Of a stretch of 64,000 nt of DNA, positions 23,658 to 48,798 are shown one piece after another. The translations under genes and the position numbers were made by a program. Within the stretch, counting starts at the first letter, position 1. Each line of letters starts with the position of its first letter. This stretch comes from an uncultured Collinsella sp. (GTDB lineage Bacteria > Actinomycetota > Coriobacteriia > Coriobacteriales > Coriobacteriaceae): NCBI GenBank assembly GCA_958435545.1, contig CAUBGU010000001.1, forward strand, positions 1 through 64,000. Reading direction: 5' to 3'. The notes under the pieces were generated by a model. That model was not told the origin of the DNA. It ran no database searches and saw only the letters and a list, made by a program, of their open reading frames with translations.

Positions 23658-23680
23658 AATGATCCGCTTTCCTCCGTCCC
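23658..23680 (-). repeat. REP-like 23-mer, copy 2
   Basis: The reverse complement matches 19987-20009 with one substitution. Its edge provides the last base of the surface protein's TAG stop codon, so the repeat abuts a coding sequence. Confidence 0.55.
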
Positions 23681-26600
23681 TAACGGATCAGCTGGCGGCG
23701 CTTGTCGGACAGGAAGACGCCGGCGGCAACCAGGACCGTGCCTCCAATTACGAACGTCTCGCCCAGCAGGTTGGACACGTCGCCCGTGGCGGGCATCGTC
23801 GTCTGCTGCGTGGTGGCCTCGGACGCCGAGGTCATGTGCTTGGCCTGGTACGCCACCTGCGTCGCAGGCTGAGTCTGCTCGCCATTCCCGCGCTCGGCGG
23901 CCTCTTGGCGAGCGATCTCGGCGTTGAGCTCGACAATAGCCTGGTCGAGCTCGGCCTTGGCGGCGGTATAGTTGGCAAGCGCCTCCAAGTAGGCAGGTGC
24001 CACAGCATCCGTCGCAGCAACGGCAGCGTCGAGCTCAATCTTGGCAGCTGCGGCGCGCTCGGCGGCATCGTGGGCTGCAGCGATCTTAGCGTTGAGCGCC
24101 TCATCCGCATCGTTGGCACGGCCGCTAGCGATGGCGTCGGCAAGGTTGATCCTGCGCAGGCGGGCAACCGCGGCGGCAGAAGCATCGCGATCAGCGGTCG
24201 CATCCGTTACGGCGTCGTCCGCCGCAGTCACGCCAGACTCGGCATCGGTCTTCGCCGAAGCCGCTGCCTCAACAGCAGCATCGGCAGCGGCCTTGTCCTC
24301 CGTCGCCTGAGCAAGCGCCGCGGCGGCATCATGTAGCTGAGCCGCACGAGCAGCAGCCGCGACGGATGCGGCCTGAGCCGCGGTCACAGCCGTGCCGGCA
24401 CCGCTCGCAGCAGCCTGGGCGGCAACAAGCTCGGCCTGGGCAGCAGCGACGTCGGCATCTGCCTGGCCTGCCGCACCCTGCGCGGCATTCACTGCAGCCT
24501 GCGCGTCAGCCTGAACGGCACGCGCCCCCTCGAGCACCGCCGAGGCCGCATCAAATGCACGCTGAGCAGCGGCAACGTCGGCAGAGTACGCAGCCAGCTC
24601 GTCCTGGGCGGCAGCAAGCGCGCTCTCCTTGTCGCCAACGCCGGCGCGAGCGGCATCCAGCGCACGCCGGGCAGCGGCAGCCTTGCCCTTGGCGACATCG
24701 AGTTCATCAGACTTGGCAGTCACGACACTCTGCGCCGCGGTAACCGCAGCGCTGGCAGCGTCCACGTCGGCGCGGGCATCAGCCACGGCACGCGCAGCGG
24801 CCTCAGCCGCGGCCTGCTTCTCCCCCACGGCAGCCTGGGCATCCGAGGCCCCAGCGGCAGCAGCGTCAACATCGGCGGCAGCAGCATCGACTTGAGCCTG
24901 CCTTGCAGCGGCGGCCTGCGACGCGGCGCTCACCTTGCCGCCAGCCTGCGCAGCCGCGCCCTGAGCGGCAGAAAGCTCCTGACGAGCCGCGTCCACGCCC
25001 TGCCCAGGATTTGCCAACGAGTCACACCACGCATTAAGCGCAGCCTCGTATTCGGCAACCGTCATCGGATTGGCGGCATTCGTGTACCATCCTCCAGACA
25101 TAGAGAACGTCTGCGCCTGCGTAAGCCAACGGTTCATCGTCCCGCGCGTGCAAACCCCCATACCCGTTACGGTGTAATCGGGATCGATCACATTCATGTA
25201 GTGACCGACTGTATGCACGCTCCCGCCATGCGCAGCCACGTAGCGATCGATTTCGTCGCCATGCTGCTCGTAGAAATCAAAAGCAGCCTTTCCCGTAAGG
25301 CCCGTCGCTCCCAGCGTAGCCGCAGCGCGGTCAAAGACGGCCTTCTCCTGATCGACCCACTGGATGAACGGGTCGCTTCCGTAGTTCCACGCCACGTTTT
25401 CGCCCACGTTGAACTGCATGGCGTGCGCAGTCTTGGTATCGGAGAAATTCGCATCGGCAATCGCGGTCGCCATCATGGCATACGTCACCTTGAGCTCACC
25501 CAGGCCAACGCTCGCACGATACTTGTTGCACGCCTTGAGCCACACAATCGCTTGCTTCATGTTGGTCAGACTCGTCGCGTCAACCTCCTCGCCCACCTTG
25601 GTGAGGCTGGCATATTTGCAGTTGAGAATCAGGTCCGCCGCATCGTCGGCACCCACGCTCTTAAAGAACGCAATGGCGCCCTGGCGGTAGTTTTCCGCCG
25701 AGGCGTTCGCCGTAGCCTGAGCGGCGTCGAGCTTGGCCTGCGCTTGAGCTACAGCCTGATCGGCCTGCTGCTTTTGAGCCTTTGCCTGGTCGAGCGCCTT
25801 GTCGGCAGCGTTCTTCTCGTCCTTAGCGGCCGAGAGCTTGGCCTGAGCGTCGGCCAGCGCCGCAAGCGCATTGGCATGCTCGGCCTTAGCCTGATCGACG
25901 GCGGCGTCTGCCGCGGTCGCAGCAGCCGTGGCAGCGTCCAACTTGGACTGCGCGTCAGCCGCAGCCTGCTGCTGGACGGCGAGCGCCTGCTGAGCAGCCT
26001 GCACCTCACCCTCGGCAGTGGTCACTTCCTGCGAGGCAGCAGCGAGTTCGCCCTCGCGCTGCGCCTGGACCGACTTGGCGGCGTCCAGCGCGGCAGCGGC
26101 GGCGTCCACCTTGGCCTTGGCAGCCTCGTACTCCGGGCCCGCGGCACCCTGCTCGGCACGGTCGAGATCGGCCTTGGCGGCATCATAGCTCGCCTGAGCG
26201 GCATTCACATCCTTATCGGCCGCATCCTTTGCCTGCTGAGCTGCCGAAAGCTTGCCTTGCGCGTCCTACTGTTTGGCCGCGGCGGCATCAACGCCAGCCT
26301 GGGCATTCGAAAGCCTGACCTGCGCGTCGGCGGCCTGCTGCTTTGCCTGCTCCAGCTCGCTCGCGGCCTGCTCGGCAGCGGCCTGAGCCGCGGCAACAGC
26401 CTCGGGCGTGGCATCGGCAGCAGCGGCCTGCGCGGACTTGAGCGCAGCCTGGGCATCGTCGGCGGTCTTCTGGGCAGCGGTCAGGGCTTCACCCTTGTCC
26501 GTCAGATCCCTCTTTGCGGCATCGAGTGCAGCTTGAGCGTCCTCGAGCGCCTTCACGTCCGCATCGGCCTTGTCCTGCGCGGCACCCATCTGCTGCTCCA

Positions 26601-27030
26601 GCTCGGCCGAAGCTGCAGAAGCGGCAGCGTCGCTTGTGCCACGGGCCGCATCGTAGGCGCTCTGAGCCTGCTGCTGGTTGGCAGCGGCGGCGTCGTAAGG
26701 AGCGGCGGCCGCATCCAAATCGGCCTTGGCAGCAGCGGCCTTAGCGCGAGCCGCATCGACCGCAGCCTGCAGGTTGGCGACCTTCTGCACCGCTGACACC
26801 GTGCCCGCGCCAGCGCTAGCAGCAGCCGCGCTCGTCAACGGAGACAGCACCGCAGCCGGCTTCGCAGTAGCGTCGGCACCGTTCGCACCCTGCGCCACCG
26901 CAGTCAGCGGAGACAGCAGCGACCCGCCCGTCATGGCGATCGTTGCCGCAGCAACTGTCGCCATACGCCCGGCGGCCTTCGCCTTACCCGCAGCGCCGCC
27001 ATTGATGTTCTTGTTCACGTTCTTGCTCAT
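23680..27030 (-). pseudogene. Large Ala-rich coiled-coil CAP-domain surface protein with MPATG sorting signal, split by an in-frame TAG
   Basis: A single reading frame of 1,117 codons runs from ATG 27030 (AAGGAA upstream) to TAG 23680, interrupted only by TAG at 26266-26268 (codon 255). Order: basic N terminus and signal peptide (VAAATIAMTGGSLLSPLTAVAQG), long Ala-rich heptad-like coiled coil, a CAP/SCP-like domain around codons 445-675 (VGENVAWN, FYEQHGDEIDRYVAAHGG, HYMNVIDPDYTVTGMGVC), a second coiled-coil stretch, then MPATGDVSNLL, a membrane helix and RRQLIR. The sorting signal implies cell-wall attachment by sortase. As read, only a secreted 254-residue fragment would be made from the first part. 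A Gln or Lys codon changed to TAG, a sequencing error, or readthrough are all possible. Low-complexity composition alone does not explain it, as both halves are in the same frame. Confidence 0.85.
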
Positions 27031-27149
27031 TGCCGATTCCTTCCCACGATGAGCTGATGTTTGACACATAATCGATCCAATATGCCCCGCTAAAAAGAGG
27101 TGATAACGGGGTAATTAAATCGGAGGAGTTGGAGACAAGCCCACATCCA

Positions 27150-27497: not shown

Positions 27498-29393
27498 TCA
27501 CTTGTCGCCACCGCCATCCTCTACCGCGCCCTCACGCGCAGCGCACTCGTTGAGATACTTGACCGGAATCGGCCACACGGACGGAGCCTTATAGCGCGAA
27601 AGGCCTATGTTGGCCAGCTGAACCAACAACTCAGACAAATCATCGCCGTCGAGTACCTCAATCGAACGCACGTGAATCGCAGTCGCCATATCCTCCTGGG
27701 TGCCGTTGTTGACGCCCACAAAATAGCAAGTCTTGCCCGCACGCTCGAACGTTCCAATGCCGTAATAAGGCGAGTTGTAGCTCTCGAAAATCTCTTTCTT
27801 ACGCCCTGCTTTGCCTGTGAGCTGATGCTCACCCACCAGGGCCATAAAGTTATTGGAAAACGTCGTCAGTCCCGTATCCCGCACGCGCGCAAGCATAGAC
27901 TGCCCGTCCGCATGCACGTCAAAGACATAGGCGCCCTTATCGAGTTTGCCGTCCGCGGTCAGCAGATCGAGCTCCATCTCGTCCTCGGGACCATCCTCTG
28001 CCGAATGTGAGGCATAGCGCATGCCCCCATCCGCGCCAATCGCCAACGTAGCGATACGCGAATCCAGCTCAATCTTGTCCTTTGTTTTATGCGGCACATC
28101 GACCAAGCCACACACCGTCACCGACTCAATATCCAAAGCATCAAGATCAAACGCCGTCACCCGCTCGTCGACAACATCCTGCTTTACCAGCAGTTCTTTG
28201 AGCATGGCGCCCAGGATCGCCTCTTGCGCATTGCGATCCTTTTGCTTTGGCGCCACCTTAAACAGTGGCTCGCACACATCCGGTGTCACGTGCTGTTCCA
28301 CCACGCCAGCATGTAAGGCATAGCCGTCGTCCTCAGCAACCTCATTGGGCACAACGACAAGGTTCAGCGCCCGCGAATCCACGGCCCTTCCGCCATACGT
28401 TGCGCGAACGCCCCACGAGGAATCGTTAAGTCGATCGGCCAGCTGGCGCGCCACTTCGGCAAGCCCATTGCGCGCAAACGACACCACGATTCGCTGCCCC
28501 GCCATGCGCTCCGCAACCACGCGCGCGTACTCATCACCCTTGAGCACCTCGTAGAAACTCTTACGCGGGTATTCCATGAGCGTCACCCGGGCGAAGTCGC
28601 TGTAACGGCGTTCGAGAATCTGCAGCTCTCGATACAAAATGCCCTTCTTGGTATAGGCGACCTTGTCCGCCTGGGCCGAGAACGTCAGATCACGGCGCTT
28701 GGACGGCTTGTCGCCCTTGGCTCGGCGCAGGATGTACTCGTCTTTTTGTTCGTGGGCAAGCACCATCGTCGCCACGGGCGATAGCCTGTAGCCCACTTGG
28801 CTCTTAATCTTTTCGAGCTCTTTCTCGTCACCTTGTGCCCTGCCAATAAGCACACGGCGCTTGGTAAACGTCCGAATCTTAAGATCAAAGGTGCAATCCT
28901 CATCGATAACGATTTCAACCGTTTCGATCTTGGCAGGTCCCCTTCCGTCGCTTTCGACAGCATCGCGGCGGGCACCCTTGGCGCTAATGACATACAGGTG
29001 CCCGGTGTCATTGGGAACTTCGTCCTCAATCCCCTCAAACTGAGAGCAGGAGTTGAACAGCAAGCGGAGCGCAACGTAATCGTCCAACTCGTTCCAATTA
29101 GTTTTAATCGGAACTATCTGCTCCTGATAAAGCGAGGCATTAAGGTCGCCCGTCTGCACGCCCGCTTTGACCATCAGAAAGACGCGGTTGTCTGCAAGCT
29201 GCGTGAGCGCGACGACCTTGCCCGTCTGGCACACATCGGCCATAAAGTTCGCCACGGCATGCTTGCCCGCATCGCCGACGTTGCACCAAAAGACCGAGTA
29301 GCGCTCCTCGGCAGCAGCGGCATCGAGCTGCAACACGAGCTCTGATACGGCGATGTCTCCCAAACCGCACGGCTGGTTATGCTTCGATTGCAC
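27498..29393 (-). CDS. Predicted PIWI-like protein (pPIWI-RE-type, divergent)
   Basis: 631 residues, GTG start at 29393 with GGAGG upstream, overlapping the helicase stop by 17 bp. I infer a MID-PIWI relationship from the pattern in the C-terminal two thirds: an alternating stretch ALNLVVVPNEVAEDD leading to VVEQHVTPD and a helix AILGAMLKELLV, as in MID domains; then strands VTVCGLVDV and RIATLAIGADGG, and a C-terminal end SVWPIPVKYLNECA resembling the LP-(I/V)-(K/H) end of PIWI proteins. The usual DEDX catalytic residues are not obvious, as expected for the PIWI-RE group. Known PIWI-RE loci pair with a DinG-type helicase and a restriction-fold nuclease, matching the next gene. This is by-eye fold recognition, so confidence is moderate. 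Confidence 0.45.
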   Translation of the reverse strand: MQSKHNQPCGLGDIAVSELVLQLDAAAAEERYSVFWCNVGDAGKHAVANFMADVCQTGKVVALTQLADNRVFLMVKAGVQTGDLNASLYQEQIVPIKTNWNELDDYVALRLLFNSCSQFEGIEDEVPNDTGHLYVISAKGARRDAVESDGRGPAKIETVEIVIDEDCTFDLKIRTFTKRRVLIGRAQGDEKELEKIKSQVGYRLSPVATMVLAHEQKDEYILRRAKGDKPSKRRDLTFSAQADKVAYTKKGILYRELQILERRYSDFARVTLMEYPRKSFYEVLKGDEYARVVAERMAGQRIVVSFARNGLAEVARQLADRLNDSSWGVRATYGGRAVDSRALNLVVVPNEVAEDDGYALHAGVVEQHVTPDVCEPLFKVAPKQKDRNAQEAILGAMLKELLVKQDVVDERVTAFDLDALDIESVTVCGLVDVPHKTKDKIELDSRIATLAIGADGGMRYASHSAEDGPEDEMELDLLTADGKLDKGAYVFDVHADGQSMLARVRDTGLTTFSNNFMALVGEHQLTGKAGRKKEIFESYNSPYYGIGTFERAGKTCYFVGVNNGTQEDMATAIHVRSIEVLDGDDLSELLVQLANIGLSRYKAPSVWPIPVKYLNECAAREGAVEDGGGDK

Positions 29394-32300
29394 GGCCGAT
29401 CGCCTCCATCATCTCCAAATTGATTGCACCGTCGGCGGCCATATAAGGAACGGAGAACACAGTCCCCTCAGCATCGAGTGCCTTGGGCACGCACTCAAGC
29501 GCTGCCTCATCAGCCAAAACGTTGACGATTAGCAGGCGTTTCGCCCCAACCTTTTGAGCCTTCGCCCTAAAGCGCTCGGCATCCGACGCCTCGCGACCGT
29601 CGCGAACATAAGCGATATAGGCACCGATGCGATAGTGCTTAAAATCGATCCATACCCCGGTCGTGTTGCCAGCAGCATCGAGCACCTCAAAGTCGCCACC
29701 TGTCTCGGCGTGTGCCGCATCGCCACGCGTAAGCGAATAGCGGCCGTCGTAATATGCCTCAAAGATTGCCCTTCCGGCAGATTCTCCCAGCTCACCCAGG
29801 TAGACCGCCTGGAACATATAGGGCGTCATGTGCGCCGTCGCCGCCGGCTGCAGCGTTGTGGGCACCCCGTCGCTCGACCAACGCTCACGCACTTCGCGAA
29901 TTGACAGCAGCTCGGGTACGCGCGCCGCCGCCTGGCTCACCTGGCGAACCGTCGCGCCCTTTAAGCCCTCCTTGCAGTGGCAACGATCCTCCAGACGAGC
30001 AGCAATCTGCTCGACGGGCTCACCATCGTAGCTAGGGAATTCAAAGTGCGGCACCTTGCATGCCCCGCCTTCTGCATAGGCATAGCCATTTGCAGCATGC
30101 GACATGCGCAGCGCGGTACTCCGGCGCTCTGGGTATTGCGCGAGATCTTCCCACGGCAGGCAAAAATGATGCAGGTAAAAGTCGCGCTCGCCATCAAAAG
30201 CAGTGAGATCTTCGTCCCCGGCGTTTAGCGAGGTAACTTTCCACGCCAGCTTTTCGTGCTTTTGCTTGGCAAGGTTGTTCCTAAAGGCGGCAAGGTTCTG
30301 CTGCTTAACGGCAGCGTGTTCCTTGTTGTCCGTCATATGGTTGTTGGCAGCGGCGCAGGCACCAACCACCTGCTCAAGCTCGTAGCCCATCGGCAAATCA
30401 TGCAAGAACGAAAAGTTGCAATCGTTCGCAATCTCGCGGTCGAGCAGCACCTGCACGCAAGGCATCTTTACACTCGTGCGCATCAGGCGACCCACAGCCT
30501 GTGCCACAATGCGAGCGCCTTCGACCTGATAAGAGAGGGTGTCGCGCACCGGCAGGCTCTTATTAACGCCAGATAGAAGCATCCGTACGTTCCGGCGCTT
30601 TTGAGTAAACGGAACCTCGCCGCGCGCTACCAGTTCCTCCTGCTCCACCACGCCAAGTAGCGCCTGCTGGACAAACTTATTTGAGTTGATCTCCACTCCC
30701 CAGGTCAAACGACTTGTGGGCGACTCGATATATAAGAAATCAAGATCCATCTTGGGGCGACGGTCGGCATTTTCAAAGCCGCAATCGACCTGATGAACCA
30801 TGTCGCACAGATTCTCCGGCACCTTGTATTTGAGATTCTTGGAAAAGCCACCGGCCGAAAGATTGATAAACATCAGGGTCGGCTGGCCCAGCTCGAGACG
30901 TTTTTGAGCGCCACGCCAACCTGCATCCCATTCCGCAGCGTTAAAGCACGGCACCATGTCCTTGGCGGCCTCAAGCGATTTCTCGTACGACATCTCGGGG
31001 CACTTGATGTTTCTAATCACCAGCTCCGCGACAATCTCGCGCGCAAGATCCAGCGCCAGACTATTGAATTCGCCATGGTTTCCCATGTGGCGCGTGGTAA
31101 AAACGGCTCCCGCCCGTTGCTCGTTACGCGCCACACCACGGGCCCAAGTACTCACGGCAACAAGCGTCTTGCTCAGGCGCTTCAGCTCAAACTCGATGCT
31201 CTTGGCGTCGCTCACGCCCACCCTGTCAGCAATCTTTAAGCGCAAGCGCACCGCAAGTCCCTCACTCACGCCAATCCCGTCAAAGAACCGCATCGCGCGC
31301 TCGTACACCTCGTCGGGCGACACAATGATGCCGCCAAAGGCGCCGCCTGCCAGCGCGACCATGCCGGCAATTTCCTTGGACTCATCCACCCAGGCAATAT
31401 CGACGTCGTACTCCTTCGCAGCCTGTTTGTTAAACAGCTTAGTCTGTCGCACGATTTCCTGGTTGAGCTCGCCAATCCAAGCGTCCTTGCGAACCACGCC
31501 ATGAACCTCGTCAAGGTAATCGAGGTTGAAGTTTTTGACGGTCGGCGCACTCCATGTTGCGCTCATGCACACGCAAGGCGCTTTGGCGGCAATGGAGGCA
31601 AGGTAGGCCTCGGGCATGCGCTCAATGCCGTGGCTGGTTAGGTACGTGGTAAACATGTGCTCGATGGTGGTTTCCATCACTAGATAATCGACACCACGCG
31701 CATACATCGAGTCGTCGGCGGCATCGATCTCGTCATTCTTGCGATCTTTAAAGAACAGCGCCAGCATCAACGAATCCCAAAAATACTTCTCGCTGGTCTG
31801 GTTGTTCCTAATGCCCAGGGCATCGATGATGTTCTTGCGCGAAAGGTCGTCCTTGTACGAAATGCTGCCGTAGTACAGCTTGTCCATAAGCGTGGCGCAA
31901 CGGGCGAGATGACCCACCACCATCCTGACCAGACCGCGTGCACGACGCACCGCCTTGCTGACGGTTTGCTGCCCACTCCCTCCGCGAGTGATAATCATAT
32001 TGCGAGTACCGCCCTCATTGAGTTTGAAGCGCAACGGATTCGCCGAGTTGTCGCCCACCGAAATATCGTCGCTGCCAAACAGATGTCGACCGGAGAGCTG
32101 CTCTTCTTTCGCCTCGTCAGACAGCGCAAAAGGCGGACGCAGTTTCATGTCCTTAATACAAGAGGCGAGTGCCTTTTGAATTTTCTTGGCATCCTTGGCG
32201 ATTTCTTCGGCATCTTCCTCTACGCTCGCCCGCGAAACCCTGTTCCTCTCGGCGTTTGACCCTTTGTGATCGCCCGACGTGGAAGCGTGCGTATAGACCG

Positions 32301-33309
32301 CCATCCATTGATCTCGATTCCCCAGTAGCAAGGGGTCCACCACACCGCCGTTAAAATGACGATCGAGGATACGCAATACTTCGTCCGGTTGAAACGTCAC
32401 GGGATCGTCTGTCAGCGTCGACAGTATGTCGGCCTTCATGTGGTCGATTTCATCAAAGATAAACAGGCCCTTCTCGGCAGCCATTGCGTTAAAGAGCACA
32501 ACGCCTGCACCGGTCACTGTATCGATCCTATTGATGAGCTTTTGCGGTGTCAGGGCAATCACATGCGGTATGCTCTCGTCATTGAGCAGGGCAGACGGCC
32601 AAATCTGGGGGATCACCTCCATGCCGCGCGTGATGTTTTTGAGCTCGTGGCTCACAGCCCAACGCAAGCTCGCATCCGCCGACGATAGCTTGTCGCGAAG
32701 GGCGGGGGTCAAACGGTCTGCAACACCTCCCAGACGATTTCGAGTGTCAAGGATGCCCAAAAGGTCATCGGCGATCTCCATCGCGTTGCCCCACGCTCGC
32801 TTAATGATGCGATGAGAGCTCTCGTCGTCCGCCTCGATGGGACACGGAATGTCGCGCACGCCCACGGCGCCCTTACCGCGCGTAGTCTCAATCCAATGCA
32901 GGATGTTATCGCCCGCACGCGGAAGATCGAACACCATGCGCTGCGCGGCATCGCCATCCATGCCCTGTTCAACCAGCAATTTGCGCACGCTCGCAACGTA
33001 GTTGTCGCGGTTGTCCTTACCCGGCACCACAAACACCAGGTAACGACGGCCCGGGCACTTGTTAAAACAGCCCGAATCGTCCCAGTCACCGGCGATGAGG
33101 TCGGCTGTGACCTGCTCGGCCGTATAGTTTTTACCCGAGCCCGTCGTGGCGCCCAAAAAGTACAGGCCATTGTTGCCCTGATCCTTGGGGGCAAACAGCG
33201 CACGCTCAAAAAACTCGCGCATCGCCTTTTGACGTGCAAGATAGGGAGCGAGCTCCTTGTCGTCCGCAGACGACGGATTCGATTGGCAGTTGAGATCCCA
33301 CATAGCCAT
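29377..33309 (-). CDS. Large SF2 helicase with C-terminal PD-(D/E)XK-like nuclease region
   Basis: 1,310 residues, ATG 33309 with GGAGG 7 nt upstream (an in-frame TTG at 33315 is less likely). Walker A: YFLGATTGSGKNYTAEQ near residue 55. Walker B: GLFIFDEIDHMKADIL near 290. Motif III: CVCMSATWSAPT near 590. Motif VI: IVAQAVGRLMRTSVKM near 960, similar to the Q-x-x-GR-x-x-R of DinG/XPD helicases. The last 160 residues hold LGELGESAGRAIFEAYY, GGDFEVLDAAG and GVWIDFKHYR, a plausible E...D...D-x-K nuclease core. It is the likely effector of the downstream PIWI-like protein, with which it is translationally coupled. Confidence 0.7.
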   Translation of the reverse strand: MAMWDLNCQSNPSSADDKELAPYLARQKAMREFFERALFAPKDQGNNGLYFLGATTGSGKNYTAEQVTADLIAGDWDDSGCFNKCPGRRYLVFVVPGKDNRDNYVASVRKLLVEQGMDGDAAQRMVFDLPRAGDNILHWIETTRGKGAVGVRDIPCPIEADDESSHRIIKRAWGNAMEIADDLLGILDTRNRLGGVADRLTPALRDKLSSADASLRWAVSHELKNITRGMEVIPQIWPSALLNDESIPHVIALTPQKLINRIDTVTGAGVVLFNAMAAEKGLFIFDEIDHMKADILSTLTDDPVTFQPDEVLRILDRHFNGGVVDPLLLGNRDQWMAVYTHASTSGDHKGSNAERNRVSRASVEEDAEEIAKDAKKIQKALASCIKDMKLRPPFALSDEAKEEQLSGRHLFGSDDISVGDNSANPLRFKLNEGGTRNMIITRGGSGQQTVSKAVRRARGLVRMVVGHLARCATLMDKLYYGSISYKDDLSRKNIIDALGIRNNQTSEKYFWDSLMLALFFKDRKNDEIDAADDSMYARGVDYLVMETTIEHMFTTYLTSHGIERMPEAYLASIAAKAPCVCMSATWSAPTVKNFNLDYLDEVHGVVRKDAWIGELNQEIVRQTKLFNKQAAKEYDVDIAWVDESKEIAGMVALAGGAFGGIIVSPDEVYERAMRFFDGIGVSEGLAVRLRLKIADRVGVSDAKSIEFELKRLSKTLVAVSTWARGVARNEQRAGAVFTTRHMGNHGEFNSLALDLAREIVAELVIRNIKCPEMSYEKSLEAAKDMVPCFNAAEWDAGWRGAQKRLELGQPTLMFINLSAGGFSKNLKYKVPENLCDMVHQVDCGFENADRRPKMDLDFLYIESPTSRLTWGVEINSNKFVQQALLGVVEQEELVARGEVPFTQKRRNVRMLLSGVNKSLPVRDTLSYQVEGARIVAQAVGRLMRTSVKMPCVQVLLDREIANDCNFSFLHDLPMGYELEQVVGACAAANNHMTDNKEHAAVKQQNLAAFRNNLAKQKHEKLAWKVTSLNAGDEDLTAFDGERDFYLHHFCLPWEDLAQYPERRSTALRMSHAANGYAYAEGGACKVPHFEFPSYDGEPVEQIAARLEDRCHCKEGLKGATVRQVSQAAARVPELLSIREVRERWSSDGVPTTLQPAATAHMTPYMFQAVYLGELGESAGRAIFEAYYDGRYSLTRGDAAHAETGGDFEVLDAAGNTTGVWIDFKHYRIGAYIAYVRDGREASDAERFRAKAQKVGAKRLLIVNVLADEAALECVPKALDAEGTVFSVPYMAADGAINLEMMEAIGRAIEA

Positions 33310-33627
33310 GGTCAAACCTCCGATTTAGTTGTTACACGTGTTTGATACCATCCCGTGCGGACAAAACTCGCGCTGGGCGGTCAAGGCGGCGGCGTCCATG
33401 CCGCTTGAGAGAAGAAAGAAAGGAAAGAGGAGCAGTCAGCGACTACTCGCACGAAGCGAGCAGTTTCTTAAGATCGCACTCCAACGCCTCGCGCTCTTTG
33501 GCATCGATCACTGCAAGGGCGACACGCATCAGGGATGCATCGGCGGCAGACTCCTGAACCTGGTCGGGGCGCTTGCTAAAGCTTTTCCCGGCAGCCTTCC
33601 GATCGGTCGCGCCGTTCAGTGCGGTGG
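33310..33627. other. Leader region of the helicase gene with a possible 58-codon reading frame
   Basis: Between the helicase and the acidic 206-aa gene a minus-strand frame is open from 33640 to a TAG at 33443. It contains a protein-like helical stretch (RVALAVIDAKEREALECDLK), but its only starts are CTG 33619 or a late ATG, without a ribosome site. It could be a small co-transcribed gene with an unusual start or the relic of a longer one. The remaining 130 bp before the helicase probably carry a promoter or leader, but no clear motif stands out. Confidence 0.4.
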
Positions 33628-34248
33628 CTAAAGATTGTCATCGGACTTTGCGCTGGCTTTGGCCGCCTCTTCGCCCGCGATCAGGTCCTTAACCGTTATA
33701 TACGCACTGTACGTAGCATCCTCGATCTTTTCCAAAACATCATCAGGGTCGCAAGTGCCCCAAGTTTCTTCGAGGACTCGAGCCAATCCCCAAGCAGCGC
33801 TGAGCAGGACGTCAACGTCCTTTAGATCTAAATGATCGACCGTAAAGGGATAGTCCGCGCACTCCAGTAGATACGTGTCAACTGCGCCAATTGCCTCAGC
33901 CACGTATGGCTCAAGATCGCAATGGGGTTGGAGGGCGCACAGCGCCTTGTGCGGATCGGTCGGCTCGATCCAATACAGCGTTGTCGCATCCTCGCATTTC
34001 TCGAGCGGATAACGCTCAACCGCCTTCTCCCAACTTTCATACCAAGGATCGGCATCGCCGTCCGTCATCGACCTGCAAAGATCAATCGCCGCAGAAACAG
34101 TCGCACACGAGCATCTATAACTGGCGCCTTTCCTAAAATCATCATTGAGCTCGTCGTCGCCAGACAGCCTCGCCTCCATGATCAGAAACGGGCCGTCATC
34201 ATCTGTAATGCTCATGGGATAGTTGTCACATTCGTAGTACGGATACAT
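33628..34248 (-). CDS. Strongly acidic hypothetical protein (206 aa)
   Basis: Begins MYPYYECDNYPMSITDDDG (GGAG before ATG 34248) and is rich in Asp/Glu throughout. It has six or more Cys residues (SYRCSCATV, EKCEDATTLYW, CALQPHCDLE, LLECADYPF) and a C-terminal helical part. No family recognised. It precedes the helicase/PIWI-like pair on the same strand. Small acidic proteins beside defence effectors can be inhibitors, DNA mimics or sensors, but nothing in the sequence proves that here. Confidence 0.6.
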   Translation of the reverse strand: MYPYYECDNYPMSITDDDGPFLIMEARLSGDDELNDDFRKGASYRCSCATVSAAIDLCRSMTDGDADPWYESWEKAVERYPLEKCEDATTLYWIEPTDPHKALCALQPHCDLEPYVAEAIGAVDTYLLECADYPFTVDHLDLKDVDVLLSAAWGLARVLEETWGTCDPDDVLEKIEDATYSAYITVKDLIAGEEAAKASAKSDDNL

Positions 34249-34276
34249 TTTGTCTCCAATCAACCGTTCGGTCACA

Positions 34277-34603
34277 TTAACAAGCAATATCAAAACCGCG
34301 CTCACGCGGAGGGTTGTCGTCCTCGATCCATTCGAGCCCGTCGTTCTCATCGATTCCGGCATCGGGGACTGACGACCATCTGAACTCGAAACCAAGCTGG
34401 TCAAGCTCATCGACTCGCTCACTGATTACTCCGTACGCATCCAACGCATTCTCGAAATCCTCCGAAGACACATAGCCGCGCTCGCACTGCTTGCGCATCT
34501 GGTGCAAACGACCCATGGCGGCAGCGATGATCTCGCGAAGAACGATAACCTCGCGCTCGCATACATCGATGTTTCCTTTGTTGAGCTTGATGCAATCGGA
34601 CAT
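34277..34603 (-). CDS. Small acidic helical protein (108 aa)
   Basis: Begins MSDCIKLNKGNIDVCEREVIVLREIIAAAMGRL (first 20 residues define the start; GGGAGG lies 6 nt before ATG 34603). The middle is a long amphipathic helix pair and the tail is acidic (DENDGLEWIEDDNPP). Unknown family. It ends 28 bp before the 206-aa acidic gene and is likely the first gene of the operon that continues to the helicase and PIWI-like genes. It is divergent from the 720-aa gene across a 109-bp promoter region. Confidence 0.6.
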   Translation of the reverse strand: MSDCIKLNKGNIDVCEREVIVLREIIAAAMGRLHQMRKQCERGYVSSEDFENALDAYGVISERVDELDQLGFEFRWSSVPDAGIDENDGLEWIEDDNPPRERGFDIAC

Positions 34604-34712
34604 AACGGCCTCCCTGGTTTTAAGCCTTTTCGCTTGATTCCATTGAACAGCCGCAAACAGCCGCGTAATATGACTTTTATCGGGTTTTAAATTTTGGCTG
34701 TTTGGAGCATTA

Positions 34713-36875
34713 ATGCTTGATTCCGAACAAGAGCCGTTTAGCTGGGGTTTCGAGGCTGGCTTTCTTCGCTCTCCCGTCAATCCCCGCATGCTTCTTCTTA
34801 ACAGAACGCCAGAGATTGATTGCGCCGATGACGGAAACGCAACCGGCAATGCAAGCGCATGGAATCTCGTCTCCGTAGCCAACGACCTATTACGCGTCGA
34901 CTTAAGCTCGCTTTTCAACGAGATTGGGGGCCACTTTCGTGAGCGAGCAAAATTGCGCTTTTACATCGATTTGCAGAACGCCATTCGTCAGCCCCCTGCT
35001 CCCCACGATGCGCAACACGCTTCGATGGACTACGCAGCCGAACCAGACCATGACGACTGGCTCGATCCAGACGATTCCGACCAAGAGTCCGCGCAAGCAG
35101 AATTGAACGAAGCCGAAATCGAAGTCAACCTTCAAAAACAAAAGGAACGCGACCTCGATTTCTTTGCTCCGATATTCGATAAAGCCATTACGCGCCATGC
35201 ACACGGAGAGATATCTGGCATGGCCAGGTATCTCCTTGAAAATGTCTGCAGGCAGTGTGTCATGAACATCACAGCGATTCCCGACTATCGCTATTACAGC
35301 TGCTGGATGAACAACAACGCTATTGAGTGCAACGAAATCAACCGCCTGTACCGCGCGGTGATCACGACATCGGCCCAACTCAATAAGCAAGAAATGGCGT
35401 CCCTCTTCAGCTCCTATCTCAAGCTCGTGTCGAACGACATGGACATTACAACTACCAACGGCAAGACCGGGCTAACAGAACCGGTGCCGTATAAACGCGA
35501 CAATCCAAGAGACAACTATCCAAAGGTCAACTCGCAGATAGAAACAGCTTGCGTTTGCACCAATACCGATCTCTTTCGAGCGCTTCTCATTGTTTTTTAT
35601 CAGGAATGTCTGGAGCTTGCCCCGCTGCTTAAAAACACCGAGGCACCTAGCCTGCTCGCGCAAAACGAAGAGTTTTTCCCAGCCGCCATCAAAACAAGCG
35701 ACCCGCGACAATTTCGATTATTCGATAATCAGCTGCCGGCAATCATCCGCTTTGGCGACGCTTTTGCATACGCAGCCAAAAAGCACTTGCCCGGAAACGA
35801 AACGGCTCAAAAGCTCGAAGAACATTTGAGCGATATAAAACGCATGAATAGCGCCCCCTTTATGCAGGCGTTTCGCAAGAACTATCTCGAGGCTATGCGC
35901 GAGAACCAAATCTACGCAAATGGAGACTTCCATACGCATGCAGAGCTTAACGACCAGGAAAACCTCAATAGGCTCGTAAGGCTTCAAGCTGTTATTGCAA
36001 AGGCAGGAGAGCTTTACTTCACCGAAGAGGAATGTTCCTTTGCAAGCCTTTATGCCCGCATCCTCCACGAGCTGCTGCTGTGCGGCATTATGCCGATAAC
36101 ATGCCAAACCTGTGGTTCGCTCTTTTTTCCGACCGGCCCTAACAGCAAGTACTGCGATCGATATAACGCGGCGACCAAGCTCTATTGCAACCCGCGGCAC
36201 AACGCCAAAAAACATCTTGGTCGCAAATCACCCCGCGACGTCGCACTCAATATACGGAGAAAAGCCGGCACGGCATACGAAAAGGGTTTAACGGATTGTG
36301 CCCACTATTTTGACAGCCTTGGCAATTTTGTTCTCGATGGTCTTGGCCCAACATACCAAGCGAGCGACCTAATTTCCGACGAGCTCTATGCGGCATGGCT
36401 GTCTATCGTCAACCAGCCCAATTGCAGGACAAAAATCAGGCGACCAGATAGGAACGGTTTTCCATACCCCGTACTGTGGTACGGATTCATCCTCAATGGC
36501 ATACAGTATGTACAAGTCGAGTTTCCCGAAGCCGAGTACCCGGCGCTTTTTGAACGCTTGAGCCAGCTCGCCGAAAGCCCGCAATCAAAGTGCACGCTGA
36601 AGCACAAGGGACCCGGCGAGCACCCATACAGCTCATGGCTTATCAAGTTATACGAGTTGTTGGAGATCATTGCGCAAATTAATAGCGCCGACCAGGTGGC
36701 AAAGCCCATTCCATTGCTTGGAATAGATAGGGACGATTGTGTCTCGACCGACCCGACCGCCCAAGGCACACGGAGCGCGCCCGACGCATGCGTCTACAGC
36801 ACCGGCACGATAGATAGCCTTAGCTTTACCGTGTATACGAAGGGATATGACCCGGAAAAGCGGGAACGAGCCTGA
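34713..36875 (+). CDS. DUF6076-like protein with C-terminal zinc finger (720 aa)
   Basis: Large soluble protein, GGAG before ATG 34713. The N-terminal 150 residues are acidic (HDDWLDPDDSDQES) and are followed by a long helical region. A Cys cluster around residues 465-500, ITCQTCGSLFFPTGPNSKYC followed by YCNPRHNAKKH, forms a treble-clef or CGNR-like zinc finger. The C-terminal 200 residues end in TVYTKGYDPEKRERA. It resembles proteins annotated DUF6076 in gut bacteria; that name is from memory. Lower GC than the core genes. Divergent from the acidic-gene/helicase operon. Function unknown; abortive-infection-type roles are a guess. Confidence 0.6.
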   Translation: MLDSEQEPFSWGFEAGFLRSPVNPRMLLLNRTPEIDCADDGNATGNASAWNLVSVANDLLRVDLSSLFNEIGGHFRERAKLRFYIDLQNAIRQPPAPHDAQHASMDYAAEPDHDDWLDPDDSDQESAQAELNEAEIEVNLQKQKERDLDFFAPIFDKAITRHAHGEISGMARYLLENVCRQCVMNITAIPDYRYYSCWMNNNAIECNEINRLYRAVITTSAQLNKQEMASLFSSYLKLVSNDMDITTTNGKTGLTEPVPYKRDNPRDNYPKVNSQIETACVCTNTDLFRALLIVFYQECLELAPLLKNTEAPSLLAQNEEFFPAAIKTSDPRQFRLFDNQLPAIIRFGDAFAYAAKKHLPGNETAQKLEEHLSDIKRMNSAPFMQAFRKNYLEAMRENQIYANGDFHTHAELNDQENLNRLVRLQAVIAKAGELYFTEEECSFASLYARILHELLLCGIMPITCQTCGSLFFPTGPNSKYCDRYNAATKLYCNPRHNAKKHLGRKSPRDVALNIRRKAGTAYEKGLTDCAHYFDSLGNFVLDGLGPTYQASDLISDELYAAWLSIVNQPNCRTKIRRPDRNGFPYPVLWYGFILNGIQYVQVEFPEAEYPALFERLSQLAESPQSKCTLKHKGPGEHPYSSWLIKLYELLEIIAQINSADQVAKPIPLLGIDRDDCVSTDPTAQGTRSAPDACVYSTGTIDSLSFTVYTKGYDPEKRERA

Positions 36876-37264: not shown

Positions 37265-39700
37265 TCACCCAACAATCTTTGGCGAGTGGGGGCTGAACGC
37301 ATCGTTGCCGTTCTGTTCATCCACCGCCCTGCGCCCCAGGCTTAAGGGTTCTGCCGCGTCATCTTCCACCCGCACGGACAGGACATAGTAGAAGTCGGCA
37401 CCCTGATTCCCACGATCCCGCACGTAGCCAAGGTCGGCCAGGCGGTCGGCCAGCTCGTCCCTCGAAACCAGCTCATTCGAGGTTATGCGACACGCCACAG
37501 GCTCGATCTCGTAGGTGTTCGTCTGGCTTATGGCGTTCCGATAGAAGCGGAACCACGACGTGCGGAAGAGATCCTTATGGTGCGAGTAGACATGCCCGTC
37601 CTTAATGGCATAGAAGTAGAAGAGAAAGCGCCCGCCCTTGCGGAGCCTGCCGCTGCTTTCGAGAAAGTGATAGTAGTCATCGGGAGAGTCCCCTCGAATG
37701 TAGCCAATCACGAACGATTCGCCACCATGCCCGTAGGAGTCGCTATCCGTCTTGCCCGCGCTTGGAGGCTCAGCCACAACCATTTCGGTGAAGTAGCTCA
37801 GCCGGTTCAGCCGCGTATTGCTTGCCGTGTTCTCGCCGATGACCTTCTCTATGAAATCGCGCAACGCATTCTCTGCCGTCCTGCTGATGCTCGGCTTCAT
37901 GGCGAAAGCGCCGACACCCGGCAAAATCTCCTCGAAGAGCCGGAATTGGCCCTTCTCGCCCGTTTCGCCCGACCCCGGATAAAGCACGTAGCTGCCAACC
38001 GTACGCCGTATCGCGTCGTTGTACGTGTGCATCTTCAGCAGGTCACCGCGCTTGTAGGTGTTCGTGGTGGAGGCCGCCTTCTCCTCGTTAAGTTCCTCGC
38101 GCTCTGCCTCCTCGGTGCCCACATCCTTGCCGACAAGCCCCGTCAAGTCGGTGATGCGGTACTTGGCGTCGAAGTGGACGAATGCAACAGCTCCATCTTG
38201 CACTGCGGCTCGCTCGTTTGTATAAGCATCCGGGAATATCGCGAGCGTGTAGTCGGGTCTGAACGGTCTCGAGTACGAACCCTCGTAACGAGTGGCATGA
38301 AAGTCACGGGGCGAGAAGGTGCGGTTGTAGTAGAGGTTTACCTTCGCGCCGCACTGCGCAATCTGGAATGACTGGCAGGAGCGTACGCCCTGCTTGAGGG
38401 ATATTGACAGCCCACCGTCGGGATTCGTCCCGATAAATGGGTGGTCATCGGTGCTTATCGGCTCGCACCCCTCGATCCCCCTTACGATGTCGTACAGCTC
38501 AAAGAAGATCCAGTACTCGTAGAGGAGGGCCACATTCTTCGATTCGCCCTCGTAGATGTCATCCTTGCCCTTCCAGTCGAGCTGCAGCGCCATATCGAGC
38601 ATGGAATATGCGAAGAAGATCTGCGAGTATCCCTCGCGCTTCTGCAACACCTGGTTGTTCTGAGGCATCATCTGCAGGGTGCCGACATCGTCGAAGAAGG
38701 CGTCGCTGAGTATCGTATCCAGCATGGCGTGCAGCGCGGCGGCTTCGCGATAACACTCCGTCTGCCGAGTATCGCCCTTCTCGGCATCCAGGACAGTCAT
38801 CAGAGAGGTGCAGATCCGGTCAATCTCATGCAGGGCAAATTTCACAAACCGATTGGCGGGCGTGTCGAGCAGGTCGTACTTGCGCGTGACGCTGACCATC
38901 TGGGGGAGGTAGACGCCTCCCGCATCGCCGCCGCAGTTCAAGCGCGTCCACATCCGGCTGTTCGAGAAGGGGTTCGTATAAAACCTCCGGGACGGCATGC
39001 CAGCCCCAACCGACCGCAGCTCGTCCTCGTGATCCAGCGTCCTATCAGGGTTCCTCTTTATCGCCTCGAAGAGGGCTTGGAGGTTCGGTTCGTAGCAGAA
39101 CTGCCGCAGGAAGACGAACTGCTCAAGCAGCGTCTCGCGATTCTCGTCGGCTTGCTTGTAAACGTTCGACGTGGAGCCCGAGTAGTCAAGGAGCAGCGCA
39201 GCGCACCTTGCGGCAAGCTCCTCGGTGAGCTCGATGTAATCGTCTTCATAGCCAATCTTGAGCGGGACGACTTCGAACTGTAGCATCGGCGCATCAGCTT
39301 CCTCGCCGAATCGAATCCTCGAACGCCCGAGATAGTTCACGAACTGGAAGGTGACACTATTGCCGTTTCTGTCGCACCTGATATTCTTGCCTTCGTTTTG
39401 GAACGAGGCGCGAGGATGCAGGCCACCATCAGGGGTCCGCTCGTATTCGAGCACATAACATGTGGTTTCGTTGATTCGAAGCGTGGGACTCCCGTCAAGA
39501 CCGTCCTTGACGGCGAAGGCTGGTGTTGAACCAGCGCCATTCTGGGATGCTTCCGGCTTGAGACCGAAACACGTCAGCCCGGTTAGCCCGGTCTGCTGTT
39601 CCTCGTCCCAATCGACTCGGTCATGCGCACCGCTCTGGTAGAGCCTGGCTATTGTTCTTCCATCCGCTGCAAAGCGGATTGCGCCGATGCTGCCGTCCAT
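37265..39700 (-). CDS. LlaJI-type R2/McrC-like DUF2357 nuclease subunit
   Basis: 811 residues. The middle contains the PD-(D/E)XK core of DUF2357/PDDEXK_7 proteins: LLYEYWIFFELYDIV (E), SRPFRPDYTLAIFPD (D) and VHFDAKYRITDL (D-x-K). N-terminal half is the DUF2357-like part; the C-terminal 140 residues (FLESSGRLRKGGRFLFYFYAIKD onward) form a separate domain whose duplicate fragment lies at 44270-44681. Gene order two methyltransferases, McrB-like ATPase, this gene, with 3-bp spacing to the ATPase, is the LlaJI arrangement, in which this subunit is the nuclease. Confidence 0.8.
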   Translation of the reverse strand: MDGSIGAIRFAADGRTIARLYQSGAHDRVDWDEEQQTGLTGLTCFGLKPEASQNGAGSTPAFAVKDGLDGSPTLRINETTCYVLEYERTPDGGLHPRASFQNEGKNIRCDRNGNSVTFQFVNYLGRSRIRFGEEADAPMLQFEVVPLKIGYEDDYIELTEELAARCAALLLDYSGSTSNVYKQADENRETLLEQFVFLRQFCYEPNLQALFEAIKRNPDRTLDHEDELRSVGAGMPSRRFYTNPFSNSRMWTRLNCGGDAGGVYLPQMVSVTRKYDLLDTPANRFVKFALHEIDRICTSLMTVLDAEKGDTRQTECYREAAALHAMLDTILSDAFFDDVGTLQMMPQNNQVLQKREGYSQIFFAYSMLDMALQLDWKGKDDIYEGESKNVALLYEYWIFFELYDIVRGIEGCEPISTDDHPFIGTNPDGGLSISLKQGVRSCQSFQIAQCGAKVNLYYNRTFSPRDFHATRYEGSYSRPFRPDYTLAIFPDAYTNERAAVQDGAVAFVHFDAKYRITDLTGLVGKDVGTEEAEREELNEEKAASTTNTYKRGDLLKMHTYNDAIRRTVGSYVLYPGSGETGEKGQFRLFEEILPGVGAFAMKPSISRTAENALRDFIEKVIGENTASNTRLNRLSYFTEMVVAEPPSAGKTDSDSYGHGGESFVIGYIRGDSPDDYYHFLESSGRLRKGGRFLFYFYAIKDGHVYSHHKDLFRTSWFRFYRNAISQTNTYEIEPVACRITSNELVSRDELADRLADLGYVRDRGNQGADFYYVLSVRVEDDAAEPLSLGRRAVDEQNGNDAFSPHSPKIVG

Positions 39701-39703
39701 AGG

Positions 39704-41575
39704 CTAGATGAAGCTCGCATACTGCACGTTATCGAGTTTCGCTGCCATCTGGCTTATCTTAACGGAGCTCAGCTCGCCATCGCATATGTCTTTCAGGCTT
39801 TTAAGCAGATTGCCGATCTCACGCTTGTTACCATGGAGCTTCGGCAGCACCTTCTGGACAATCTGCTCATCGACAGAACGCTCGAGTTCGTAGTTCTCGC
39901 CGTCAAGCTCGTGCGCGGCATTAACGTACATTCGCACTTCGCGCACGGTGCGGAAGGCAAACTCATAGCCGCATTTCTCCAGCTCTTCATACAGCTTGTC
40001 GAACTTCTCGAAGATGGCGTTAGCATCATCTTCGCTGATGTAATTGGCTCCCTCCCATATGTCCTTGGCGAGACGCAGAAAAGCCTGGGGGACGCCGGAA
40101 GCTGCGACGGCAACGTCCGGCGCATCCTCGATGGCTTTGAACCCTGCGAGGACTTCGGCCTTCGACGGCTTGAACTCTATGACGTTTGCCCTGTCGAGCA
40201 CCTTGGGGCTAAACATGTAAGTGGTCTCATCGATGTTCACGGTGCCGACAACGAACAGGTTCTGCGGATAGGGCAGCCTGTCAGCACCGCCATCGCCGTA
40301 CCCATCAAGCACGATGAGGTTATCCTCGCCGATGGTCTCCATGTGGCTGAGGAAGTCTGAGAAATACCGCTCGACATGGCTCAGGTTCATCTCGTCGAGG
40401 ATGAGGAAATACGGAACCTCGGGGTTAGCGTTGGCCCGTTCGATGAGTCTCAGTATGCCGGTCTCTTCGTACGCGCCTTTGCCGCCGTCTGCAATCGGGT
40501 TGAAGAAGCCCAGCACCTTGGTGTTGTCGGTCCAGTCGGCACCGACCGGGACGAGCAACCAGTTTGGCTCCCCGTCTTCATCCAAGACCTCAAGGTACTT
40601 TGCAAAACGCTTGGAAATCCGCGTCTTGCCTGTTCCGCTGTTGCCAGCAAGGATGACAAAGGGCTTTGCCAGTAGTGACGTGATGTAGCGCCTGGAGAAG
40701 TCGGTTTTAAATTCAGCTGGAAGGTTGTTTAGCTGAAAAGTCCTCTTCTCTCTGCTTGATGCTTTCGATGAATTCTTTGCAGCAAGGTCGATTAGTTGAT
40801 GCATTGCGGGCAGCACGTCATCGCCTTGTTCGTAGTCGATGCCCTCTTCGGCAATCAATTGGCTCGCTATGAGGTTTCGCATGAACTCAGCCACGCTGTA
40901 ATCAAACTCAAGTTTCCCTGCGTAAACGTCAGCGAAATACTTGAATGCCGTGGTCAGGCTACCAGCCCTCATCTTGCATCCGCGATTGCAAAGGGCAATA
41001 AGATCGTCAATTCTCGACTTGTAGTCGTAATCTATCGCACCCGAAAACTGCCCGTCTTTGTATCTGCTTCCAGTGGCGAAGAAGAGTTTCGTTAGCTCCA
41101 AGATATATGCATCTTCGGAGACGCCCACAGGCTTTACTTCGGCTGCATCCATCCAGAATGTCCTTTCCGCAAAACCGTCCTCTTGCAACGGCGATGAATC
41201 GTTTACTTTGCCCGTCACTGGCAACAACAGCAGTGCGGCAAACAAGTTGCCGACATTTGGACGCTTTGCCCCGTCTCCTTGTATTTGCACACGTACTTTT
41301 CCGCCTTTTTTTGCAACGGGATAACGCGTGCCAAGGGAGACAACTTGCCCAGTAGAGGGTACGACTACTTCCAAGATGATTGCGTGTCCGATAATGTCAA
41401 CTGCAGTCAGCGTATCCCCGTTTGCAAGAGAGCCTGAACCTTTGAGTTCGTACTGTCCAGCACCACCTTGTCCAACTGTTCTCCCGCAAACGGATAGCGT
41501 ATTCTCGCTATATATAGAATTCGGAATGGGATAGCTCAAATTCCATTCATCGACAAAGGACATGGCAACCACCAC
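39704..41575 (-). CDS. McrB-like AAA+ ATPase/GTPase, LlaJI-type R1 subunit
   Basis: 623 residues. Walker A PFVILAGNSGTGKTRISKRF near residue 320. Walker B and the McrB signature are in FLILDEMNLSHVERYFSDFLSH near 410, then VVGTVNIDETTYMFSPKVLDRANVIEF (sensor 1 and arginine region). The N-terminal 300 residues carry a probable DNA-binding domain, as in LlaJI R1 and McrB. In McrBC-type enzymes this subunit recognises DNA, hydrolyses nucleotide, translocates and activates the nuclease. Only 2 bp separate it from the methyltransferase gene and 3 bp from the nuclease gene. Confidence 0.85.
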   Translation of the reverse strand: MVVAMSFVDEWNLSYPIPNSIYSENTLSVCGRTVGQGGAGQYELKGSGSLANGDTLTAVDIIGHAIILEVVVPSTGQVVSLGTRYPVAKKGGKVRVQIQGDGAKRPNVGNLFAALLLLPVTGKVNDSSPLQEDGFAERTFWMDAAEVKPVGVSEDAYILELTKLFFATGSRYKDGQFSGAIDYDYKSRIDDLIALCNRGCKMRAGSLTTAFKYFADVYAGKLEFDYSVAEFMRNLIASQLIAEEGIDYEQGDDVLPAMHQLIDLAAKNSSKASSREKRTFQLNNLPAEFKTDFSRRYITSLLAKPFVILAGNSGTGKTRISKRFAKYLEVLDEDGEPNWLLVPVGADWTDNTKVLGFFNPIADGGKGAYEETGILRLIERANANPEVPYFLILDEMNLSHVERYFSDFLSHMETIGEDNLIVLDGYGDGGADRLPYPQNLFVVGTVNIDETTYMFSPKVLDRANVIEFKPSKAEVLAGFKAIEDAPDVAVAASGVPQAFLRLAKDIWEGANYISEDDANAIFEKFDKLYEELEKCGYEFAFRTVREVRMYVNAAHELDGENYELERSVDEQIVQKVLPKLHGNKREIGNLLKSLKDICDGELSSVKISQMAAKLDNVQYASFI

Positions 41576-41577
41576 AA

Positions 41578-42465
41578 TTAATCTGCTGCATAGTCAGCTA
41601 TGCATCTAGCAACGTACTCAGCAAGCTTAACTGGCACGGCATTGCCAATCGCCTGCTCAATGTCTGTCTTGGACCCGACAAACTCAAACTCTTCGGGGAA
41701 GGTTTGCAGATAGCTGCGCTCCTTGTATGTTAAGGCTCTCACACCTTCAGAAATATCAGCCTTGTCGGCATGATGCCTCTTATATGCTGGCGGTATCGGA
41801 CGGTTGGTGCCTCGTACCGTTACCGCTGGCTCGTCAATCGTGAAGACGCCCCTACGCTGGAAGTTGCGTGGATGCATGTAGAAGTATTGCGTGCCGAGCG
41901 AATCGCCAAGGTAATCCCTGACGGTCATCTGCTTGTCGCTCAGCCTTGAATCCAAGAGTTCGCCGAGAAAGTCATCTTTATCACCAAGATGACCGACAAG
42001 GATAAAGCGCCTGCGAATCTGAGGCACACCACATAGACTGGCGTTGAGGACGCGCCTCGTGAGACCGTATCCAGCATTGCGGAATATTTCCAGCGCCTCG
42101 GGCAGGACGTCCATCCGCTCGATATTGTAAACATTCTCCATGACGAACCACTCGGGTCTGACGTCCCGAACTATCTCAGCATATCGGATGGTGAGATTGG
42201 CCCTTTTGCCGCGCTGTCTGGCGCCCGCAATGGAGAAGTCCTGGCAAGGGGGGCCACCGATTATCATCGACGGCGAATACTCTTCAATTTTCGGGACCGC
42301 TTCCGCATCGTAAAGATCGTATTTGAATGCCGGGTGGTCGAAGTTTGCCGAATAGATGTCGACAGCCGCCTGCCAGTTATCAAACGCCGCCTTTATGTTG
42401 AAGCCCGCATTCTGGAATCCGAGCGACATACCGCCGCATCCCGAGAAAAGATCAACGCAGTCCAT
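41578..42465 (-). CDS. C5-cytosine DNA methyltransferase (second of a pair)
   Basis: 295 residues, complete set of C5 motifs: I DLFSGCGGMSLGFQNAG, IV GGPPCQDFSIAGARQRG with the catalytic Cys, VI VMENVYNI, VIII QIRRRFILVG, target-recognition region, IX YKERSYLQTFPEEF and X QAIGNAVPVKLAEYVARCI. It overlaps the upstream methyltransferase by 14 bp. Two methyltransferases are used in LlaJI-like systems because the recognition site is asymmetric and each modifies one strand. Confidence 0.93.
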   Translation of the reverse strand: MDCVDLFSGCGGMSLGFQNAGFNIKAAFDNWQAAVDIYSANFDHPAFKYDLYDAEAVPKIEEYSPSMIIGGPPCQDFSIAGARQRGKRANLTIRYAEIVRDVRPEWFVMENVYNIERMDVLPEALEIFRNAGYGLTRRVLNASLCGVPQIRRRFILVGHLGDKDDFLGELLDSRLSDKQMTVRDYLGDSLGTQYFYMHPRNFQRRGVFTIDEPAVTVRGTNRPIPPAYKRHHADKADISEGVRALTYKERSYLQTFPEEFEFVGSKTDIEQAIGNAVPVKLAEYVARCIADYAAD

Positions 42466-44681: not shown

Positions 44682-44720
44682 CATTTCACGAGCATGTCGA
44701 TTGGTACAGGAGGAAAGATT

Positions 44721-48683: not shown

Positions 48684-48729
48684 GGCAATTCCCTTCTAAA
48701 CGGAATCGGTAAGGAGGCAAAAACTGGAC

Positions 48730-48760
48730 CGCACGGCTTACGACTAACGGAAGCCGTGCG
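48730..48760 (-). terminator. Hairpin between the TraG-like and ClpP-like genes
   Basis: The perfect 10-bp stem CGCACGGCTT/AAGCCGTGCG is followed on the minus strand by GTCCAGTTTTTG. It would reduce readthrough from the ATPase gene into clpP and suggests separate or attenuated expression. Confidence 0.55.
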
Positions 48761-48798
48761 ACAAAACATGCAAGATGGGGTACACAAAGCTGCAAGGG

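Follow-up and report, generated by a model that had tools for sequence, protein, structure and literature searches.

A probable DdmDE system of a divergent lineage in an uncultured Collinsella

Which kind of system is formed by two overlapping genes, one for an Argonaute-like protein and one for a large helicase, in the DNA of an uncultured Collinsella sp.? Collinsella is a common gut genus, and the stretch analysed here, called the window below, spans 64,000 nucleotides (GenBank assembly GCA_958435545.1, contig CAUBGU010000001.1, positions 1 to 64,000). Both open reading frames (ORFs) were confirmed on the reverse strand where an earlier note, made from the letters alone, had placed them: 27498-29393 (631 residues) and 29377-33309 (1,310 residues). 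That note had proposed a PIWI-RE-like module in a defence island. The PIWI fold, the helicase-nuclease partner and the defence surroundings of this proposal stood, but membership of the PIWI-RE family did not, as the two partners match DdmE and DdmD. We conclude that the locus is very probably a DdmDE system, made of two genes and belonging to a divergent lineage in Collinsella, for which an anti-plasmid role, by analogy with the systems already studied, appears likely.

Homology of the two proteins to DdmD and DdmE

The larger protein is predicted to be a DdmD-type superfamily 2 (SF2) helicase with a C-terminal PD-(D/E)XK nuclease. It was matched by the PADLOC DdmD model with an expectation value (E) of 1.2e-6, and by DdmD in a phmmer search of the Protein Data Bank (PDB) at 3.2e-7. 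A profile of this protein and 9 of its 98 homologues (A3) reached the solved DdmD chains in the PDB with E between 4.1e-11 and 1.3e-10 and the Nostoc DdmD at 1.7e-25. In hhalign, A3 was aligned over columns 44-1296, with E 5.5e-53, to six DdmD-like relatives (A7), five of which are named DdmD by PADLOC, the exception being that of L. intestinalis. Motifs were counted in 91 sequences, namely the window protein and 90 of the 98 homologues, each of at least 1,250 residues, with residues numbered on a 1,312-residue reading from TTG 33315. In all 91 we found Walker A GSGKN (residues 59-63; 33127-33141, reverse strand as for all motifs below), D288, E289, D291 and H292 of helicase motif II DEIDH (288-292; 32440-32454), motif III SAT (585-587; 31555-31563), and Q939, G942, R943 and R946 of motif VI QAVGRLMR (939-946; 30478-30501). 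The same holds for each residue of the nuclease motif D1208...D1224-F-K1226 (29638-29694), whose last three residues line up with the DFK of Nostoc DdmD. Profiles and motifs thus bear out the helicase-nuclease partner of the earlier note.

The smaller protein is predicted, from profile comparisons and a structure model, to be a DdmE-type long Argonaute. When the model was searched against the PDB with Foldseek, the six best matches were solved DdmE chains (E 2.5e-21 to 5.2e-13), so that the fold is of the Argonaute/PIWI kind and not an unrelated one, in keeping with the MID/PIWI-type patterns seen earlier. The model aligns with long Argonautes over residues 12-625, and a short Argonaute was set aside. 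By profile, the protein was aligned over 588 columns to four DdmE-like partner proteins (A6; E 2.2e-29), which themselves align to solved DdmE with E 3.1e-44.

Residues were counted over 112 rows, consisting of the window protein and 111 of the 120 matches listed, each of at least 590 residues; P0001, among the matches listed, is 100% identical to the window protein. Y358, Q367, H368, K399, K404, D506 and H574 are invariant. A MID-domain signature made of Y358, QH 367-368, KEL 399-401 and K404 (28182-28322) is present in all 112 sequences, and its QH and EL.IK elements also occur in the four A6 proteins. Since MID residues of other Argonautes bind the guide 5' end, the conserved ones here are candidates for a guide 5'-end pocket. 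The C-terminal PIWI tail R...WPIPVKYLNE (residues 600-616; 27546-27596) is aligned to solved DdmE, and the A6 alignment shows a similar pattern. Apart from the invariant D506 and H574, no full DEDX set could be assigned by eye, without residue-level superposition, and in alignments read by eye D506 is absent from most relatives.

Among known systems, the top Foldseek match, at 2.5e-21, came from DdmDE of Lactobacillus casei (PDB 9iw3, 9ixm, 9ix4), which consists of two partners of the same kinds, with profile matches to both window proteins. The L. casei DdmE chain is longer, however (715 against 631 residues), and only 13% identical in the Foldseek alignment. In DdmDE of Vibrio cholerae (PDB 9ezy, 8u0j, 8u3k, 9bgk), the DdmD chains have 1,190-1,220 residues against 1,310 in the window, and DdmE is 15-19% identical to the window Argonaute. 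Identity to the four DdmD of plasmids (Nostoc, Persicobacter, Cetobacterium, L. intestinalis) is 16-20% for the helicase and, for the Argonaute, 15-19% to their partners. The lineage is therefore divergent; it is missed by Pfam and NCBIfam, and the PADLOC match is only weak.

The distance to solved DdmE is bridged in part by two DdmDE-like pairs from another family of the same order, L063 (L063:2168-7541) and L064 (L064:4054-10236). Their PADLOC DdmD matches (3.5e-35 and 1.7e-31, respectively) are far better than that of the window, and their Walker A carries Ser (L063) or Thr (L064, in a degenerate GERKT) where the window has Asn. The DdmE-like partner gene overlaps by 11 nt in L063 and lies 6 bases apart in L064. 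As to the plasmid loci, no Walker A was found by pattern in the annotated DdmD-like ORF of L. intestinalis (L058:4794-8207), whose start may be misplaced or whose gene may be cut; a match on an L. delbrueckii plasmid (L059) is a broken-up fragment and was excluded from the alignments. The Persicobacter and Cetobacterium partner genes are not part of A6, against which they later scored 22.1 and 2.1 bits, and at 2.1 bits the Cetobacterium partner is at most a candidate DdmE-like protein. We also observed that the DdmD-like two-gene loci of Nostoc (L006), Persicobacter (L056) and Cetobacterium (L057) lie on plasmids, where they are perhaps used between plasmids.

Several observations weigh against the DdmDE assignment. 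The fit to the DdmE fold is loose (TM about 0.5; root-mean-square deviation 7.5 over 512 residues), the PADLOC DdmE model matches the 631-residue protein weakly (E 0.031), and phmmer straight from this protein to solved DdmE gave E 0.21. Compared by hhalign with the Nostoc partner alone, the A2 alignment reached a probability of 53% (E 1.4e-4), and two of the partners used as bridges, those of Nostoc and L. intestinalis, go unrecognised by the PADLOC DdmE model. On the helicase side, Walker A ends in Asn63 in 91/91 sequences, at a position that is usually Thr or Ser, as it is in the five readable relatives (Nostoc, Persicobacter, Cetobacterium, L063 and L064). A structure model of DdmD residues 500-1312 was poor (predicted local distance difference test score 52.7); all 10 of its structure matches at E≤0.001 are DdmD, a result that is weak alone and covers the C-terminal part. 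The viral fold library gave no match at E≤0.001.

DdmDE weighed against related systems

In a PIWI-RE module, a PIWI-RE protein would stand with a DinG helicase and a restriction endonuclease. The window shares with such modules a PIWI-like fold beside a helicase and a nuclease, and according to PMC10991935 PIWI-like proteins adjoin helicases and PIWI-RE genes often cluster with those of DinG type. The profile relation is missing, however. Pfam gave no family for the 631-residue protein at E≤10, and at E≤1 it gave none for the 13 proteins of A1, of which the window protein is one; hhalign to three PIWI-RE proteins gave E 0.27 over 51 columns, against 2.2e-29 for the DdmE-like proteins. These three are long ORFs, cut at the N-terminus, from fetched stretches of three of the four positive genomes. 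The RNaseH_pPIWI_RE model was positive in 4/296 genomes of the phylum (14 control genomes being silent) but negative in G001, which carries the operon. Nor is the partner of DinG kind: it is DdmD-type, and Pfam Helicase_C_2 scored 11.9 bits, below the cut-off of 25.3. As for the "two-gene fused version" suggested earlier, there are two genes, and the sole fusion is that of nuclease to helicase within the large protein. On these grounds PIWI-RE was rejected, and we regard it as most improbable.

ApsAB, a sister anti-plasmid kind with the Argonaute-like ApsB, was also weighed: that of Escherichia coli likewise pairs an Argonaute-like protein with a helicase-nuclease, ApsA belongs with DdmD in a single broad family (both from PMC11096173), and the Collinsella lineage is distant from solved DdmDE. 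The same source gives the ApsB MID motif as Y[X]3K[X]nQG[X]nK. In our 112 rows, however, a Lys four places after Y358 is found once and QG never (Q367 is followed by His in 112/112), and the best structure matches are DdmE. The Collinsella pair is thus set apart from ApsAB by the published motif, and an ApsAB-type system seems improbable.

Two further possibilities leave the kinship with DdmD in place. A DdmDE homologue might have been retuned to a phage or an integrative element, with guides or a trigger unlike those of V. cholerae, which would be compatible with the identity of the proteins. The low identity (about 20% at most) to the pairs of Nostoc, Persicobacter, Cetobacterium and L. intestinalis would fit this, as would the shorter Argonaute (631 against 677-715 residues in solved DdmE), the invariant Walker A Asn and the restriction, SIR2 and AbiE-type neighbours; yet nothing points to it directly and the core motifs are kept in both proteins, and we hold it to be unlikely. 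The lineage might also be a type of its own, distinct from both DdmDE and ApsAB: a separate DdmD/ApsA branch in gut Collinsella and kin, in which Asn would replace the Mg-binding Walker A Thr/Ser and the shortened Argonaute would have another guide or target. This we hold to be similarly unlikely. We therefore retain DdmDE as the best description of the Collinsella pair.

Gene arrangement and variable site

The ddmE-like gene starts with GTG at 29393, inside the 3' end of the ddmD-like gene, and the two overlap by 17 nt (29377-29393), identically in the other two Collinsella loci (L003 and L004). A putative ribosome-binding site GGAGG (29403-29407) lies 9 nt upstream of the GTG, within ddmD, and this arrangement suggests that translation of the two genes is coupled. 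For ddmD, an alternative TTG at 33315 would give 1,312 residues. ATG 33309 appears to be the better start, because a putative ribosome-binding site GGAGG (33317-33321) lies 7 nt upstream and because 55 of 98 homologues have 1,310 residues (the next commonest length is 1,316, n=21). With 121 homologues of the smaller and 98 of the larger protein at E≤0.001, the ORF pair is more than chance.

Among the 120 matches listed for the 631-residue protein, the sole organism name is Collinsella aerofaciens (P0081); both loci of the protein in genome_contigs are from Collinsella metagenome-assembled genomes, and it occurs in 2 of 58 relatives. A DdmD profile was positive in 3/43 genomes of the genus, 5/396 of the class and 1/296 of the phylum, so that the operon is patchy at each level. 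The PADLOC DdmE model found none in 296 genomes of the phylum, where controls were equally silent and the count is thus uninformative. On the viral side, a pattern search of viral_contigs returned 28 and 432 stretches, none confirmed as a relative, and the phages collection gave no match for Nostoc DdmD.

The region, or part of it, was compared in 12 genomes of the genus on DNA pieces above 300 bases. The operon is present in G001, G005 and G350. It is absent from G007, G031 and G004, all three of which matched the window on either side of the segment, at about 21-23.6 kb and at about 54-63 kb; the comparison was uninformative in G020, whose contig ends there, and in G008, G025, G012, G015 and G019, which matched the left flank only. 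G007 lacks window positions 23,660-53,797. Its junction falls within the AbiEii gene, so that this state may be a deletion and not the original empty site. G031 and G004 carry about 5 kb of other genes at the ddmDE site; in two genomes without ddmDE, the same site was seen to hold ORFs of 431 (ATPase-like) and 958 residues, named by eye (L045:1837-7135, L050:12937-18156), perhaps another defence set. The ddmDE segment also includes a DUF2357/PDDEXK_7 protein, an AAA ATPase (PADLOC PDC-M26A), two C5 methylases, a SIR2 protein (PDC-S25) and most of AbiEii. Because of this gene content and its absence from flank-matched genomes, we read the segment as a defence island that occupies a variable site. 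The earlier note was right in this, since PADLOC and Pfam identify further defence genes close by.

On the far side of ddmE, two reverse-strand ORFs of 842 and 267 residues (23680-26208 and 26266-27069) share one reading frame and correspond to a single 1,129-residue ORF in L003, 99.7% identical; either the gene is broken in frame or there is a sequence difference. The larger has a CAP domain (Pfam 4.3e-4). PADLOC LmuB, DndD and JetC hits to this pair (1.7e-4 to 0.1) were deemed chance matches of low-complexity or coiled-coil sequence, and a Lamassu/SMC reading was dropped because of the CAP domain and because both ORFs are pieces of one frame. Upstream of ddmD, two overlapping reverse-strand ORFs of 264 and 213 residues (33628-34918), without a family match in the libraries tried, have counterparts of equal lengths in L003. 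They precede a forward-strand gene for a 720-residue protein with a Cys-containing stretch (34713-36875), without Pfam or PADLOC match, whose DNA is about 89% identical in G005. Then follow, on the reverse strand, the DUF2357/PDDEXK_7, AAA and two successive C5 methylase genes (37265-43645), which we take to be an LlaJI-like restriction set, and the forward-strand SIR2 gene (44694-46301; PDC-S25, 6.2e-140), preceded by an ORF of 242 residues without known family. ClpP-like and TraG/VirD4-like ORFs, recognised by eye on the reverse strand (48081-50283) near AbiEii at 53035, are perhaps traces of a conjugative element.

Proposed action and meaning for Collinsella

In the studied systems, as described in PMC12409362, DdmE is catalytically inactive; it binds DNA guides, locates the plasmid and brings in DdmD. 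The DdmD dimer opens and is loaded onto the non-target strand, then moves in the 5' to 3' direction and cleaves. PMC12904381 gives the same scheme, one sentence swapping the two protein names. Because both parts are homologous, this scheme is the best guess for the Collinsella pair. DdmE, probably unable to cut, would hold a short DNA guide and pair with plasmid DNA; once bound, it would recruit DdmD, which would load onto the non-target strand, travel 5' to 3' using ATP and nick or degrade that strand, so that the plasmid would be lost.

Our literature search returned no paper joining DdmDE with Collinsella, nor one joining Collinsella, Argonaute and defense systems. DdmDE, for which structures have been solved from V. 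cholerae and L. casei, would reach a divergent Collinsella lineage. Surveys relying on the curated models used here, to which this lineage is almost invisible, may undercount the system; broader DdmD and DdmE profiles could draw on L063, L064 and the pair from the Nostoc plasmid. Because Asn is invariant in Walker A, the question of how DdmD couples ATP to movement becomes testable. For Collinsella itself, the system may have a bearing on plasmid content.
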